NCBI RefSeq assembly: GCF_003325355.1
Contig: NZ_CP030850.1
Coordinates: forward strand, 2,542,001-2,606,000
Direction: 5' to 3'
DNA from: Runella rosea
Lineage (GTDB): Bacteria; Bacteroidota; Bacteroidia; Cytophagales; Spirosomataceae
DNA: 64,000 bases
Of the stretch, positions 46,538 to 51,858 are shown in pieces. How positions within the stretch are numbered: position 1 is the first letter of the stretch; each line of letters opens with the position of its first letter. The notes beneath the pieces were generated by a model, which saw nothing but the letters and a program-made list of their open reading frames with translations, was not told where the DNA came from and searched no databases. The position numbers and the translations under genes were made by a program.

Positions 46538-46598
46538 ACAAGCGACTTGGGATTGAGCCGCATTTTATCATTTAACAAATAACTATTTTCAAGGTTTT

Positions 46599-46642
46599 GT
46601 CATTTGGCCGACATTCGGTTAAGGCTTGATGTGTCATTTTTG
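46599..46642 (+). promoter_or_regulatory. Activator-type promoter of the YHS gene (shared motif copy 1)
   Basis: GTCA (46599-46602), 4 nt, GCCGACATTC (46607-46616), then 18 nt, then a degenerate -7 box CATTTTTG (46635-46642). There is no good -33 TTTG. The same arrangement precedes the DM13 gene at 49478-49521. The start codon follows 31 nt after the box. Confidence 0.68.
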
Positions 46643-46673
46643 TATCATCAAACTATCAATTCCGAACAAAGTC

Positions 46674-47135
46674 ATGAAAACAATCTTTTTGGCCACGCTT
46701 CTGCTCCTGACAGAAATTATTTTTGCGCAGTCCCCTGCGCTCCGTCAAAAACAATATAATTTAGAAAAAGGTATCGCGCTCTCTGGCTACGACCCCGTCA
46801 GTTATTTCAAAAAAAATCCCACCAAAGGCTCCAAGTCGTACGTAGTAGTACACGAGGGAGTTACGTATCAATTCTACTCAGCGGCCAATGCCGAAACGTT
46901 TAAAAAAAATCCCGCCGCTTACGAGCCTCAATATGGCGGTTGGTGTGCATACGCGATGGGTGCGGCCAACGGTGAAAAAGTCGAGATAAATCCTGAAACC
47001 TACAAAATCATCAACGGCAAGTTGTATCTTTTTTACAACAAAGTGTTCAACAATACTTTATCGGATTGGAACAAAGATGAGGGCAATCTGAAAGTAAAGG
47101 CCGACAAAAACTGGCAGCGTGTTGCTGCTCAATAG
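46674..47135 (+). CDS. Exported YHS domain protein
   Basis: The 153-residue protein starts at 46674 (MKTIFLATLLLL) with a signal peptide ending near FAQS. The rest is a YHS-type domain: GIALSGYDPVSYF, YQFYSAANAETFKKNPAAYEPQYGGWCAYAMG and DKNWQRVAAQ at the end. Related proteins are found in oxidant- and metal-stress genes, but their biochemical role is unclear. It is followed 39 bp later by a DoxX gene, and its promoter carries the motif shared with the DM13 operon. Confidence 0.88.
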   Translation: MKTIFLATLLLLTEIIFAQSPALRQKQYNLEKGIALSGYDPVSYFKKNPTKGSKSYVVVHEGVTYQFYSAANAETFKKNPAAYEPQYGGWCAYAMGAANGEKVEINPETYKIINGKLYLFYNKVFNNTLSDWNKDEGNLKVKADKNWQRVAAQ

Positions 47136-47174
47136 TATACCCTTCTTCCTTCCTCACAGAAAAACCCTCAATCC

Positions 47175-47576
47175 ATGAAAACCAAAACCATCCTCTCTTG
47201 GCTCGTTCAAATCGTAGCCGCTGTCATTCTGTTACAAACACTTTTTTTTAAATTTACGGGGGCCGAAGAAAGTGTCTACATTTTCTCTAAACTTGGCGTA
47301 GAGCCTTACGGACGGATTGGCTCAGGCGTTATTGAATTAATCGCGGGTATACTTTTGCTCACACCTCGTTATTGCTGGATTGGCGCTATCTTGGGTCTGG
47401 GCACCATGGCAGGCGCTATTTTATCGCACCTTACTGTACTGGGAATTGATGTTTTAGGCGATGGAGGGCAGTTGTTTGCGTTGGCACTGATAACCTTCAA
47501 ATGCTGTGCACTCGTCGTGATATTACATTGGTCAAAAGTCATTTCAACCATTCGTGGCTTACTTCCTGCCCATTGA
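47175..47576 (+). CDS. DoxX-like membrane protein
   Basis: The 133-residue protein has four hydrophobic helices with the DoxX-family pattern (LQTLFFKFTGAEESVYIFSKLG, GVIELIAGILLLTPRYCWIGA). DoxX-type proteins are linked to quinone or thiol redox functions in some bacteria, but most are uncharacterised. It probably forms an operon with the YHS gene. Confidence 0.85.
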   Translation: MKTKTILSWLVQIVAAVILLQTLFFKFTGAEESVYIFSKLGVEPYGRIGSGVIELIAGILLLTPRYCWIGAILGLGTMAGAILSHLTVLGIDVLGDGGQLFALALITFKCCALVVILHWSKVISTIRGLLPAH

Positions 47577-47646
47577 GTCGCGCCTTTTTTTTGGAACATT
47601 TTACCCTTTAACTTGCTTTTAGTATTAATATTCTCTTATTTTTCGT

Positions 47647-48690
47647 ATGTTCTCAACCCTTCGTTCTCCACTTTGGCTCGTTAAATTAGTGAATTATGAA
47701 TATTGGACTTGGTGGGTATTTTTCCTGCCACTTACACCCTATTGGCTCTATTTAGCCCTCCGAAACCGTTCACTTACCTATTTTACTGCCGTCAATACGT
47801 GTATTCCCGACGGCGGAGTTTTCGGTGAATCTAAAAATGATATTCTCGCTCAAATTAGTCCTCAATTTTTGCCTGCGGGGGCTTTTATCCCACAAGGCGA
47901 AGCGTGGAAGACTGTGGAAGAAAAGCTAAAAAAAGCAGGCATTTTGTATCCGCTCATCGTCAAGCCCGACGTAGGAGGTCGGGGATTTCGGGTACACAAA
48001 ATAGACGACGCCGACCAACTCCAACGCTACCTAAAAGAAACGCCGCAACCTGTTATTATTCAAGAATACGTTGACTATGAATTGGAATTTGGGGTGATGT
48101 ATGCACGCTTGCCCGAAGAGTCTAAAGGCAAAATCACCTCCATCACGCAAAAGGAATTTTTGAGTGTAGTAGGCGACGGACATTCAACGGTGGGCCAACT
48201 TCTAACCCAAAACACTCGTGCCCGTTTTGCAATGCAGGAATTGCAGCAACGCGTAAAAGACGAGTGGAATAACGTAGTTTCGAAAGGGCAGCGCCGCTAC
48301 ATTCAGCCCATTGGCAATCATTGTTTGGGCACTAAGTTTTTGAATGCCAATCATTTAATTAATCAACGCCTCGAAAGCATTTTTGACCAAATAGCTTTAC
48401 CGATTGAAGGGTTCTATTACGGACGTTTTGACCTAAAGGTAAGCAACTTAGAAGATTTTTACGCAGGCCGTAATATCAAAATCATGGAACTAAACGGAGC
48501 CACATCGGAGCCTGGGCATGTCTATGACCCCACCTATACACTGTGGAAAGCCTATCGCGATATTATGCATAACATGCGAATCGTGGCCGACATCAGCGCC
48601 GCCAATATTCGCTTGGGGGTAAAGCCTACGCCGTTGGGCAAACTCTTACAAACTTCCCGTGATTTTTTTGCAATGAGCGGTCAACTTTAA
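47647..48690 (+). CDS. Membrane-anchored ATP-grasp enzyme of unknown substrate
   Basis: The 347-residue protein begins with an aromatic, hydrophobic segment (about 15-38: YEYWTWWVFFLPLTPYWLYLALRN), predicted to be a membrane anchor. The ATP-grasp fold follows: YPLIVKPDVGGRGFRVHKI (ATP-binding Lys and Gly loop), PVIIQEYVDYELEFGVMY, and FYYGRFDLKVSNLE with IKIMELNGATSEPGHVYDP (metal-binding Asp, Glu and Asn). Members join a carboxylate to an amine via an acyl phosphate, for instance D-Ala-D-Ala ligase or muramyl/peptide ligases. The acceptor here is not predictable. It lies between DoxX and the Crp/Fnr gene. Confidence 0.8.
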   Translation: MFSTLRSPLWLVKLVNYEYWTWWVFFLPLTPYWLYLALRNRSLTYFTAVNTCIPDGGVFGESKNDILAQISPQFLPAGAFIPQGEAWKTVEEKLKKAGILYPLIVKPDVGGRGFRVHKIDDADQLQRYLKETPQPVIIQEYVDYELEFGVMYARLPEESKGKITSITQKEFLSVVGDGHSTVGQLLTQNTRARFAMQELQQRVKDEWNNVVSKGQRRYIQPIGNHCLGTKFLNANHLINQRLESIFDQIALPIEGFYYGRFDLKVSNLEDFYAGRNIKIMELNGATSEPGHVYDPTYTLWKAYRDIMHNMRIVADISAANIRLGVKPTPLGKLLQTSRDFFAMSGQL

Positions 48691-48762
48691 ACGACATCTA
48701 TTTGAGTAAATAGTTCGTATATTTACCAGTATTAATGCCTGTTTACTCTAAAACATCGTAGG

Positions 48763-49464
48763 ATGACTCCGCAATTTCCCCTAGAAACCCGCTACTGGTA
48801 CCTGCGCGACCATCAGCTATTCAGGCACCTCAACTCAGCAGAACTCAGGCAAATCTGTCTGATTACTAATTTCAAATCAGCCAAGAAAAGCGAGATTATC
48901 TATTTTGCGCACGACGAAACCAACCGAGTTTATCTTCTCAAAAAAGGTGTCATTAAGATTGTAGAGCTCGATGCCGAAGGCAACGAAACGGTCAAAGAAG
49001 TAATTCAGAAAGGAGACCTTTTTGGCCAGATAACCCTGGATGATACCGACCTGAATGAGTTTGCCGTGGCCTTATCAGACTCCGTGACAGTATGCAGTTT
49101 CAAGATTGAAGATTTTGAAAAAGTCATCCAACAAAACCCTACCCTTGCTGTCAAATTTACCAAACTAATTGGACTGCGTTTTCGTCGGTTGGAGAATCGA
49201 TACTCCAACCTGATGTTTAAAGATGTCCGTACCCGACTCCTGCTTTTTTTGGAAGAATGGGCCGAAAAAGAGGGCACTCCTACCCCCGAGGGAATTACCC
49301 TCAAAAACTACCTGACCCACCAAGACCTAGCCAGTCTGATTTGCAGTACGCGCCAAACCGTAACGCAGCTTTTCAGTGAATTGAAGCACAACGGACTCAT
49401 TGACTATAACCGCAGCAGTATTGTGATTCCTGATGTGAAGCAACTCCGAAAATTAACCGCATAA
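48763..49464 (+). CDS. Crp/Fnr family transcriptional regulator
   Basis: The 233-residue protein has a cyclic-nucleotide-type sensor domain (about 15-130, with EIIYFAHDETNRVYLLKKGVIKIVELDAEGNE and KGDLFGQITLDD) and a C-terminal Crp-type helix-turn-helix (about 185-222: YLTHQDLASLICSTRQTVTQLFSELKHNGLI). No cysteine cluster for an FNR iron-sulphur centre is present, and the usual cAMP phosphate-cassette Arg is not seen. The shared motif lies 14 bp after its stop codon and also before the YHS gene, so it is the prime candidate to bind there. Confidence 0.92.
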   Translation: MTPQFPLETRYWYLRDHQLFRHLNSAELRQICLITNFKSAKKSEIIYFAHDETNRVYLLKKGVIKIVELDAEGNETVKEVIQKGDLFGQITLDDTDLNEFAVALSDSVTVCSFKIEDFEKVIQQNPTLAVKFTKLIGLRFRRLENRYSNLMFKDVRTRLLLFLEEWAEKEGTPTPEGITLKNYLTHQDLASLICSTRQTVTQLFSELKHNGLIDYNRSSIVIPDVKQLRKLTA

Positions 49465-49477
49465 ATGTCGCGGAAAC

Positions 49478-49521
49478 GTCAGCAAGCCGACATTCCGTCG
49501 GGACAAAATCAAACACCTTTG
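49478..49521 (+). promoter_or_regulatory. Activator-type promoter of the DM13 operon (shared motif copy 2)
   Basis: GTCA (49478-49481), 4 nt, GCCGACATTC (49486-49495), 18 nt, then CACCTTTG (49514-49521): the same order and spacing as upstream of the YHS gene. CCGAC and GTCGG (49487-49501) also form a small palindrome here. The start codon follows 24 nt later. Confidence 0.68.
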
Positions 49522-49545: not shown

Positions 49546-50007
49546 ATGAAAAAGGCCCTGTTAATGATTTGTTTAATGCTGGGAGGAATCGCCTGTCAAA
49601 AAAATGAAGAGCTTCAACCCGTGGCCCCTGTTTCAAATACAGGCAATGTAGGTACTGGAACCAACAAGCCCATTACGTCATTTGATTCTACGGGACAAAA
49701 ATTAGTGGCGCAGGGGATGTTTATGTCCAACGTCCATCAGACTTCCGGTGGGGTAAAATTGTACCAAAAAGGGGATAAATATTCCCTTGTTTTCAACGAC
49801 TTCAAAACCGACAGTGGGCCAGATTTACGGATTTATCTCTCCGAAGATCGCGTTGCTTCTCGGTTTGTAGAAATCAGCAAAGGGGTAAATCTCGGCAATT
49901 TTTTTATTGAATTGCCTTCGGCTCCTGATCTCAAAACCCAAAAGTATATCCTGATTTGGTGCAAACCATTCTCCGTTCTGTTTGGCAATGCCGAACTTAA
50001 ACAATAA
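49546..50007 (+). CDS. DM13 domain lipoprotein
   Basis: The 153-residue lipoprotein has lipobox GIAC (C17). From about residue 48 it shows a DM13 domain (GQKLVAQGMFMSNVHQTSGGVKLYQKGDKYSLVFNDFKTDSGPDLRIYLSED, shortened here to the part that is typical) with one late Cys in LIWCKPFSVLFG. DM13 domains are proposed to bind redox cofactors or take part in extracellular electron transfer; this is not settled. It is the first gene of the DM13-OMP-YceI-DinB group and has the shared Crp/Fnr-type promoter motif. Confidence 0.87.
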   Translation: MKKALLMICLMLGGIACQKNEELQPVAPVSNTGNVGTGTNKPITSFDSTGQKLVAQGMFMSNVHQTSGGVKLYQKGDKYSLVFNDFKTDSGPDLRIYLSEDRVASRFVEISKGVNLGNFFIELPSAPDLKTQKYILIWCKPFSVLFGNAELKQ

Positions 50008-50080: not shown

Positions 50081-50797
50081 ATGAAAAAAGCATTCTTGTT
50101 AGTGTTCGCTTTAGCGGTTTTTACCGGCAGTCATGCCCAATTTAGTTACCCAAAAAAAATAACTACGGCCGACGTGGCGCTGTCGGCCATCGGAGGGTTT
50201 TCGGGGGCGCTGTCGTACCAACAGCTCTACGGCATCGGCAAAGCCAAGCGTTTCAAAGTGGGTTGGGGCGTTCGGTTAACATCATTTGTGGGTAAAGACC
50301 TAGATTACATCACCGCACCCGCCCGACTTACTTCGGGAGAAACGGGACCGCAGGTGTTGTTTGTCGAGAATGTACTGTCCAATCTCGACACGCTCAAATT
50401 GTCGCGCTCACAAACCAACGCCCTCAATTTGGCCATTCATTTAGAATACAGTTTTCGCAAACTAGACGTAGGCTTCAACATCGACGCCATCGGCGCTACT
50501 TTTGGAGCCGAGCAAACAGGAACGTTTTTGGCCAAATCTACCGACTCACGTTTGAGCGGTACGCAACAATCCGCCAAGCCAACGGTTTTCAATTTATTGT
50601 TGGTCAGCGACAACGACTTGGGCAGTTTGAACTCTGAATTGTATGCGCGCTATTGGTTCAGTCCCAAAACAGGGATACGACTCGGGGCAAGTTTTCAGTT
50701 TACGGAATATACCACTTCTCAAAATCTAACTTTTGAAAATGACCGCTTCCGCAACAAGATTTTAATGCCTTTTGTGGCGATTTCTTTCAAATTATAA
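50081..50797 (+). CDS. Outer-membrane beta-barrel protein, unknown function
   Basis: The 238-residue protein has a signal peptide (MKKAFLLVFALAVFTGSHAQ) and alternating amphipathic strands ending in a hydrophobic C-terminal strand with terminal aromatic/leucine (MPFVAISFKL), as in small outer-membrane barrels. No family is recognised with confidence. It follows the DM13 gene by 73 bp and precedes yceI by 24 bp, so it is probably in the same operon. Confidence 0.75.
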   Translation: MKKAFLLVFALAVFTGSHAQFSYPKKITTADVALSAIGGFSGALSYQQLYGIGKAKRFKVGWGVRLTSFVGKDLDYITAPARLTSGETGPQVLFVENVLSNLDTLKLSRSQTNALNLAIHLEYSFRKLDVGFNIDAIGATFGAEQTGTFLAKSTDSRLSGTQQSAKPTVFNLLLVSDNDLGSLNSELYARYWFSPKTGIRLGASFQFTEYTTSQNLTFENDRFRNKILMPFVAISFKL

Positions 50798-50821: not shown

Positions 50822-51355
50822 ATGAAAAAAATCCTAATTTTAGTACTTTGCGTAGGTATGTCGGGAACTGCTGTGAGTCAAGTCTGGCAACCCGTTTCAT
50901 CAGCCATCGGTTTTTCAGTCAAAATGTTGGGGGTAACTGTCAATGGGTCATTTAAAGGATTGGCCGCCACCTTGAAATTCAACCCCGAAGCCCCCACCAC
51001 TGGCAGCATTGCTGCCAGCGTTGATGCGGCAACGATTGAAACCGAAAATACGCTTCGAAATCGCCATTTACGCGAAAAAGAAGACTTTTTTGAGGTTGCT
51101 AAGTACCCAAAAATCAGCCTAAAATCCACCAAAATCGAAAAAGGAGCCAACGGCTACATCGGATACTTTGACATGACCATCAAAGCCATCACTAAAAATG
51201 TCAAAGTACCGTTTACATTTTCAGAAGCCAACAATAAAGCTACTTTCAGCGGAACCTTTAAAATCAACCGTAAGGATTGGGCCATCGGAGGCAACACCTT
51301 CGGCATGTCTGATGATGTCACTATCCGTCTAACTGTTAACGCCGTTTCAAAATGA
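50822..51355 (+). CDS. YceI family periplasmic lipid-binding protein
   Basis: The 177-residue protein has a signal peptide (to about 20) and the YceI lipocalin-like barrel: SSAIGFSVKMLGVTVNGSFKG, SIAASVDAATIETENTLRNRHLREKEDFFEVAKYPKI (family core) and the late KINRKDWAIGGNTFGMSDDVTI. YceI proteins bind polyisoprenoids or amides and are often linked to quinone metabolism or stress. Its stop overlaps the start of the DinB-like gene (ATGA). Confidence 0.92.
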   Translation: MKKILILVLCVGMSGTAVSQVWQPVSSAIGFSVKMLGVTVNGSFKGLAATLKFNPEAPTTGSIAASVDAATIETENTLRNRHLREKEDFFEVAKYPKISLKSTKIEKGANGYIGYFDMTIKAITKNVKVPFTFSEANNKATFSGTFKINRKDWAIGGNTFGMSDDVTIRLTVNAVSK

Positions 51356-51858
51356 CCTTGCTTCAACGAACCAATCTGGACGTTTTATTGCAACTGAAAG
51401 ATTTGCTCAAAATTATTTCTCCAGCAGCGTATTCCGACCCGTTGACCCTCCTGCACGGAAGCAGCGTAGGCCAACACGTGAGGCATACCCTGGAATTTTA
51501 CCAATGTCTTTTTGAACAGGCACCGCAAGGTTTTGTGGACTATGATGCCCGCCAGCGAGACCTACAGTTGGAAAATGACCCAGCCTTCAGCATCACTAGG
51601 GTGGAGCAATTGGTCGAAGCCTTAAAAAAACCGATTCCTACCACTCAGATTATCCTGAAAGCTTCGTTTTTAGAAAACGACACCGAAGAAATTCAAACGA
51701 CTTGGGCCCGTGAACTGGTCTACATGGCCGAGCACGCCATCCATCATTTTGCCATTATAAAAATTGCGCTTAGAGAGCAATTCCCCGAAATAGCCGTACC
51801 GATACATTTTGGCGTGGCGTACTCAACGATTAAGTATCGGGAAGTTGCGACGGTCTGA
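51352..51858 (+). CDS. DinB-like four-helix protein
   Basis: The 168-residue protein has the DinB/YfiT-like four-helix pattern with the likely metal-binding His residues in GQHVRHTLEFYQCL (first helix pair) and YMAEHAIHHFAIIKI (fourth). Relatives include metal-dependent thiol-S-transferases and bacillithiol-type enzymes. It overlaps yceI by 4 bp (ATGA), a sign of translational coupling, and ends the operon. Confidence 0.82.
   Translation: MTLLQRTNLDVLLQLKDLLKIISPAAYSDPLTLLHGSSVGQHVRHTLEFYQCLFEQAPQGFVDYDARQRDLQLENDPAFSITRVEQLVEALKKPIPTTQIILKASFLENDTEEIQTTWARELVYMAEHAIHHFAIIKIALREQFPEIAVPIHFGVAYSTIKYREVATV

Follow-up and report, generated by a model that had tools for sequence, protein, structure and literature searches.

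What do two promoters of one gene cluster in Runella rosea have in common, and which protein reads it? The cluster lies in a 64,000-nucleotide (nt) stretch of contig NZ_CP030850.1 (NCBI RefSeq assembly GCF_003325355.1, positions 2,542,001 to 2,606,000 of the forward strand; hereafter the window), for which a preliminary description had noted the same 14 fixed bases, GTCA-N4-GCCGACATTC, before a gene for a YHS domain protein and before an operon headed by a DM13 gene, and had proposed a Crp/Fnr regulon with activator-dependent promoters. Judging from the sequence, the motif belongs to a dyad to which the Crp/Fnr-type activator encoded between the two promoters very probably binds, and we regard the proposed regulon as well supported. 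The best description of the system appears to be a Crp/Fnr regulon of Cytophagales and Flavobacterium that uses the box of the carbon monoxide (CO) sensor CooA without CooA and that serves to repair oxidant damage in the envelope.

A pattern scan of the window placed GTCATTTGGCCGACATTC at 46599-46616 and GTCAGCAAGCCGACATTC at 49478-49495. Both copies of the motif and both CAnnTTTG boxes are present as first described, with the same 14 fixed bases and the same 22 nt between the last motif base and a TTTG, which lies inside CATTTTTG (46635-46642) in the first promoter and inside CACCTTTG (49514-49521) in the second. Inspection of the sequence showed no TTG at -33 of either promoter, in agreement with the "no -33 TTTG" noted earlier. 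The Crp/Fnr gene does lie between the two sites, and its open reading frame (ORF) ends at 49464, which leaves a gap of 13 nt to the second motif and not the 14 given before. Exact matches to the motif number two in the 7.16-Mb genome, both in the window, and random matches away from promoters are few elsewhere in the genome. The sole match with one mismatch in the window (27898) was rejected as a regulatory site because it falls inside a 1020-aa ORF resembling a resistance-nodulation-division (RND) efflux pump (label by eye). The motif as written was too strict, and a relaxed pattern adds two sites of the genome outside the window.

The motif bases are part of a 16-bp imperfect dyad, TGTCR-N6-CGACA (5-N6-5, the Crp spacing), on the forward strand at 46598-46613 (operator 1, TGTCATTTGGCCGACA, a TGTCA-N6-CGACA dyad) and at 49477-49492 (operator 2, CGTCAGCAAGCCGACA). 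This dyad escaped the preliminary description, as did the resemblance to the CooA box, the further targets (MsrA, MsrB, thioredoxin-like and AhpC/TSA proteins) and hence the likely function. In both promoters the TTTG lies 25 nt after CGACA. In Flavobacterium psychrophilum the TAnnTTTG box is placed at -12 to -5, according to passages of one paper (PMC9723704). If the -7 boxes of the window, both on the forward strand, take the same place, the dyads would span -49 to -34 of the YHS and DM13 promoters, centred at -41.5, with predicted start sites at about 46647 and about 49526. Class II Crp promoters have their site centred at -41.5, and a dyad centred there without an upstream core element, the start sites being predicted, is the class II feature that both promoters present.

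Chance likeness of the two promoters was rejected on account of the conservation and constant spacing of the site in relatives, for which we took the best 80 of 105 loci with a Crp relative. Operators at the same place include TGTCGGCCATCCGACA (L039), CGTCGGGCAGCCGACG (L040) and GGTCGTCCAGCCGACA (L044), and YHS relatives in loci of Runella, Emticicia and Flectobacillus are preceded by a site like operator 1. The dyad is mostly kept in relatives: of the 30 best Crp loci, 28 contain GTC-N8-GAC (the exceptions being L058 and L060). Of 43 sites of the form GTC-N7-CGAC or GTCG-N7-GAC up to 300 nt before cluster genes of the 80 loci, 42 (all but that in L162) have a TTTG at a distance of exactly 26 nt from the last C of GAC; for such matches elsewhere in these loci the figure is 10 of 52, and eight of those ten precede LysE-like (5), polyketide-synthase-like (1) or barrel-like (2, by eye) genes. 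With TTTG left out of the pattern, 76 non-redundant GTM-N6-YCGACA sites were collected from the 80 loci and the window, and TTTG follows CGACA after exactly 25 nt in 50 of them, other offsets occurring at most four times each. The A of YAnnTTTG is present in all 50 fixed-spacing sites, though absent from the search pattern. The inner letters of the same 50 sites lean to C-T-A-G, which gives TGTCAnCTAGCCGACA. The half farther from the promoter is loosely kept and the nearer one, CCGACA, tightly, in part because of how the sites were selected.

The site also tracks the Crp gene across genomes. A sample of 200 genomes from the family contains 47 that encode a Crp relative at E 1e-40 or better. 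The pattern GTMD-N5-YCGACA-N25-TTTG gave 110 matches in 44 of these 47 genomes (41 matches in 26 genomes when the pattern was reversed as a control) and 70 matches in 53 of the 153 Crp-less genomes (reversed control, 107 matches in 71 of 153); the excess of sites over control is confined to Crp-bearing genomes. The Fisher p of the association between Crp and site is 1e-13, a value that is uncorrected for the kinship of the genomes and so overstates the number of independent events, and the individual positions discussed below were taken from among the matches listed. Where DM13 has no Crp gene beside it, GT-N9-CGACA was found upstream in none of the cases (0/15); three of the genomes concerned have a 53-55% Crp relative elsewhere. 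DM13 and Crp lie on separate contigs in six Crp-bearing genomes, namely G036, G052, G065, G077 and G088, all of one Arcicella-type genus, and G066. The exact pattern precedes the unlinked DM13 gene in four of the six (L175, L176, L177, and L179); in G077 the site is GTCATTTAGCTGACA, one base off in CGACA with TTTG at the usual distance, and in G066 it is GTCATTTAGCCGACG, one base off in CGACA with TTTA instead of TTTG at that distance. We infer from these unlinked genes that the regulator would act in trans. Five strong-form matches from Crp-less genomes (L173 and L192-L195) have no gene of the target families downstream, as judged by eye. The proposed regulon with activator-dependent promoters is thus supported by the dyad geometry, the class II position, the co-occurrence with Crp, the unlinked targets and the absence of the site before DM13 genes of Crp-less loci. 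Two contigs of metagenome-assembled genomes (MAGs), titled Bifidobacterium breve and Limnohabitans (L143 and L161), hold the Bacteroidota regulator, and their titles are probably misassigned.

As for further targets, the relaxed pattern matched the R. rosea genome at C1:4532196, before a gene for an exported MsrA (TIGR00401, 210 bits), and at C1:5636944, before that of a second YHS protein (NF041384). The latter site recurs with its gene in five more Runella loci (L231, L232, L246, L248, and L250) and the msrA site in two more (L247 and L249). A wider target list for this genome was rejected because patterns with 2 or 3 mismatches give no excess over the reversed control, and two extra pattern matches were rejected because they lie inside ORFs. 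Among 23 matches in Crp-bearing genomes beyond the main YHS and DM13 promoters, hand-picked as strong-looking, 12 precede YHS, three MsrA, two YceI (both at the upstream end of the Lacihabitans cluster) and one a barrel protein; one more precedes MsrA but lies within an opposite-strand ORF (L303), two precede genes for a flavin adenine dinucleotide (FAD) oxidoreductase and an extracytoplasmic function (ECF) sigma factor, and two are inside ORFs (L302 and L304). The YHS and barrel labels in this set were given by eye, and Pfam was run on L203, L237, L241, L243, and L303.

Several other sites may point to targets of a different kind. A CooA-type box stands before a type III polyketide synthase-like gene of Runella defluvii (L104:2819-2832, 25 nt to TTTG; Pfam chalcone synthase), a surprising possible target, and CooA-type boxes also precede polyketide synthase-like genes of Lacihabitans (L167:4938 and L170:4940; label by likeness), with no TTTG at the expected place. 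Five loci of Emticicia, Runella defluvii and one MAG (L100, L104, L106, L107, and L110; Pfam on L106 only) have, some 3 kb upstream of crp, a gene for a LysE-like transporter that is preceded by a separate site. The ECF sigma gene of genome G028 sits behind a correctly spaced box (L241:1567-1610), which may indicate a second layer of control.

Flavobacterium clusters carry a TGTAA version of the box. GTAA-N7-GACA-N25-TTTG directly follows crp in 18 of 33 Flavobacterium-type loci, and in three more the box is present but not at that spacing. Among 21 genomes that were selected because they have a Crp relative, 16 of them titled Flavobacterium, GTAAD-N5-CGACA-N25-TTTG gave 21 sites in 15 genomes, compared with 5 sites in 4 genomes for the reversed control. 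These sites precede YHS (7), DM13-like (3), MsrB (3), thioredoxin-like (5) and AhpC/TSA (1) genes in 19 of the 21 cases, the other two having no clear ORF; Pfam was run on one MsrB, one thioredoxin-like and the AhpC/TSA protein. Among 120 sampled Flavobacteriaceae a Crp relative at E 1e-55 was found solely in the centre genome, and the GTAA-version pattern in 3 of 120 genomes with the centre included, hence in 2 of the 119 others; an off-by-one control with 26 instead of 25 nt matched 2 of 120.

The proposed activator is encoded at 48763..49464 on the forward strand and matches HTH_Crp_2 and cNMP_binding of Pfam above cut-off, as expected for the N-terminal cNMP-type beta-roll and C-terminal winged helix of the Crp/Fnr superfamily. 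The 50 best rows shown by a fold search are Crp-family structures, and the best-scoring solved relative by profile is NtcA (E 1.5e-26), with CooA at 3.3e-24. The recognition helix of the window protein, STRQTVTQLF, is close to those of CooA from C. hydrogenoformans (TTRQTVSVLL) and NtcA (STRVTVTRLL). The genome has 23 places with a cNMP domain, that of the window included, and no TRQ helix was seen in the six of the other 22 whose helix could be read. In an alignment of the window protein with relatives from 58 of the 80 loci (59 sequences), R197, T199, H17, C32, E99, and C111 show no variation; Q198 occurs in 57 sequences and C194 in 56. The arginine of the phosphate-binding cassette that serves cyclic AMP (cAMP), whose position in Escherichia coli CRP we take to correspond to position 99, is not there, Glu99 standing in its place in 59 of 59 aligned sequences.

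MsrA, MsrB, AhpC/TSA and thioredoxin-like proteins act on oxidized or reduced sulfur, and these target gene names point to oxidant repair as the function. From the sites, their geometry and conservation, the link with the Crp gene and the target list, which are read from sequence, we infer binding, activation, function and signal as follows. The Crp/Fnr protein (48763-49464) would bind TGTCR-N6-CGACA, with CCGACA as the tight half, centred at -41.5, and as a class II activator it would recruit RNA polymerase to sigma-A promoters that retain only the -7 box. The predicted regulon comprises the YHS-DoxX operon, the DM13-outer membrane protein-YceI-DinB operon and the distant genes for the exported MsrA and the second YHS protein, and it may help the cell to repair oxidized envelope proteins or to protect them from oxidation. 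The regulator would sense neither cAMP nor, by the mechanism of CooA, CO; its activity may depend either on an oxidant that acts on the conserved H17/C32/C111 set or just on how much of the protein is present. Taken as a whole, binding to a CooA-type dyad, class II activation and an envelope oxidant-repair regulon without cAMP or CooA-type CO sensing make up an explanation that we consider likely. A bolder version, in which a dedicated regulator of Bacteroidota joins a CooA-type DNA-reading head to a His17/Cys32/Cys111 sensor that would read oxidants (e.g., hypochlorous acid or peroxide) directly and drive a regulon for envelope methionine-sulfoxide repair, with YHS and DM13 as new repair parts, is put forward tentatively, and we would expect it to fail somewhat sooner than to hold.

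Several observations weigh against the explanation. The oxidant reading was drawn from gene names, it is less certain what YHS, DM13, DoxX, and YceI do, and no induction data for an oxidant response were found. Twelve of the 33 Flavobacterium-type loci have no GTAA box after crp, and Pseudarcicella (L058 and L112) has the Crp gene and no site nearby. In G126 and G157 the Crp protein is 53% identical, with the helix TSRQTVTQ and H17, C32, E99, and C111 kept, and in G018, G044, G151, and G056 it is 50-54% identical with the helix SNRQ; neither group has a correctly spaced site near Crp or DM13, and the Crp proteins of the latter four have Gln at E99, two of them having also lost C32. Box-like matches in L295 and L297-L299 lie within ORFs, and some matches are due to chance, those in L302, L304, L306, and L309 being inside ORFs. 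In the six genomes named, the operator may have changed or the regulon may have been lost. The structure model has a predicted template modeling score (pTM) of 0.50 and a confidence between domains too low to judge how close C32 and C111 lie. For the loci of G126 and G157 (L295 and L296), the operator may have changed in that genus.

Which signal, if any, reaches the regulator is where the strongest alternative lies, namely that the protein is always competent to bind, senses nothing and controls by its own amount. SdrP, HB099, and DdrI work without a ligand, and SdrP is a class II activator for oxidative stress, according to excerpts of two papers (PMC8465061; PMC12937710), and the glutamate at the cAMP-arginine position in all 59 aligned sequences fits that precedent. 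As far as these excerpts go, SdrP of Thermus thermophilus is the nearest functional parallel, an effector-independent class II oxidative-stress activator, although it differs in its box (AWTGTRA-N6-TYACAWT) and its helix (VRETVTK), and it is far less similar to the window protein (2zcw, E 1.7e-7). H17, C32, and C111 are nevertheless invariant in the 59 sequences and have no evident plain DNA-binding role, which suggests a sensing site without being decisive, and control by amount alone appears to us doubtful, though a serious possibility. Among Bacteroidota, Crp-Pg, HcpR, and PgRsp of Porphyromonas gingivalis are likewise Crp/Fnr proteins, and Crp-Pg is independent of cAMP (a portion of PMC12040651); the Porphyromonas gingivalis proteins have other targets, and the similarity of the window protein to Crp-Pg (2GAU) is remote (E 2.5e-9).

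That the regulator is a CooA-like gas or haem sensor for CO or NO and not an oxidant sensor is suggested by the box and helix it shares with CooA, one of its closest solved relatives, and by the conserved H17, C32, and C111, which could be metal or haem ligands. The CooA box has been published as TGTCGGCnnGCCGACA (part of PMC545781) and as TGTC-N8-GACA (part of PMC7306483); over the 14 fixed letters of the consensus, site 1 shares 11 and site 2, which starts with C and not T, shares 12. CooA of Rhodospirillum, Carboxydothermus, and Desulfovibrio thus resembles the window protein in DNA box, helix (TRQTVS/T) and Crp fold. However, the haem ligand of R. rubrum CooA is His77, as stated in a passage of PMC12937710, and this histidine is absent, fcTH of CooA (2hkx) aligning with fGEL in the family and fGQI in the window protein. 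The set of envelope oxidant-repair genes and its place in Bacteroidota also differ from CooA: the targets read are Msr, thioredoxin-like, AhpC/TSA, YHS, DM13 and other genes, and CO dehydrogenase genes were not among the downstream genes read, the genomes themselves not having been searched for them. A sensor of the CooA kind is improbable on this evidence. NtcA of cyanobacteria is similar in its helix, STRVTVT, and has half-sites at N8 spacing, GTA-N8-TAC. It differs in that it senses 2-oxoglutarate and controls nitrogen genes (passages of PMC12937710).

Quite improbable, too, is that the site is an element of another factor, such as an ECF sigma factor or some other protein that binds DNA, and that the Crp gene merely travels with the cluster. 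A -35 element would likewise keep a constant distance to the -7 box, and in one relative (L241) such a site is followed by an ECF sigma gene, but the -7 box is of sigma-A type (A in 50 of 50 sites), the element, with its end at -34, lies farther upstream than a -35 box could, the dyad has Crp spacing like the CooA box and Crp a CooA/NtcA-like helix, and the occurrence of the site goes with the Crp gene and not with the targets. Repression of the YHS and DM13 promoters is very improbable, since Crp/Fnr proteins can both activate and repress but the centre at -41.5, the lack of a -33 element and the one strict spacing fit class II activation, repressor sites usually varying in position.

The genes behind the two promoters all lie on the forward strand. 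The YHS gene (46674..47135) encodes a member of the YHS domain-containing (seleno)protein family (NCBIfam NF041384, 125 bits against a cut-off of 70; Pfam YHS below cut-off), exported by the look of its start, and is followed, probably in the same operon, by a DoxX-family membrane protein gene (47175..47576; Pfam DoxX_2 and DoxX above cut-off). An ATP-grasp-like protein (47647..48690; Pfam ATP-grasp below cut-off) is of uncertain regulon membership, and its relative in L098 has its own site. The second operon begins with a DM13-domain lipoprotein-like gene (49546..50007; Pfam DM13, 50.8 bits), followed by genes for an outer-membrane beta-barrel-like protein (50081..50797; label by eye, no Pfam match), which adjoins DM13 in many relatives, and for a YceI-family protein (50822..51355; Pfam YceI), relatives of which have their own site in L114, L243, and L244. 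The product of 51352..51858, which overlaps the yceI stop, adjoins yceI in many relatives and has no Pfam match, is presumably DinB-like.

In the open-licence literature we found no paper on this Crp/Fnr group or its regulon, and a search of that literature for a link between CooA and CGACA found none. An operator, a promoter rule and a target list are now stated for a Crp/Fnr group of Cytophagales and Flavobacterium, and YHS, DM13, DoxX, and YceI proteins, whose roles are uncertain, are tied by it to methionine-sulfoxide reductases and thioredoxin-like proteins. The regulon also suggests that a genome may carry a CooA box without CO being sensed.

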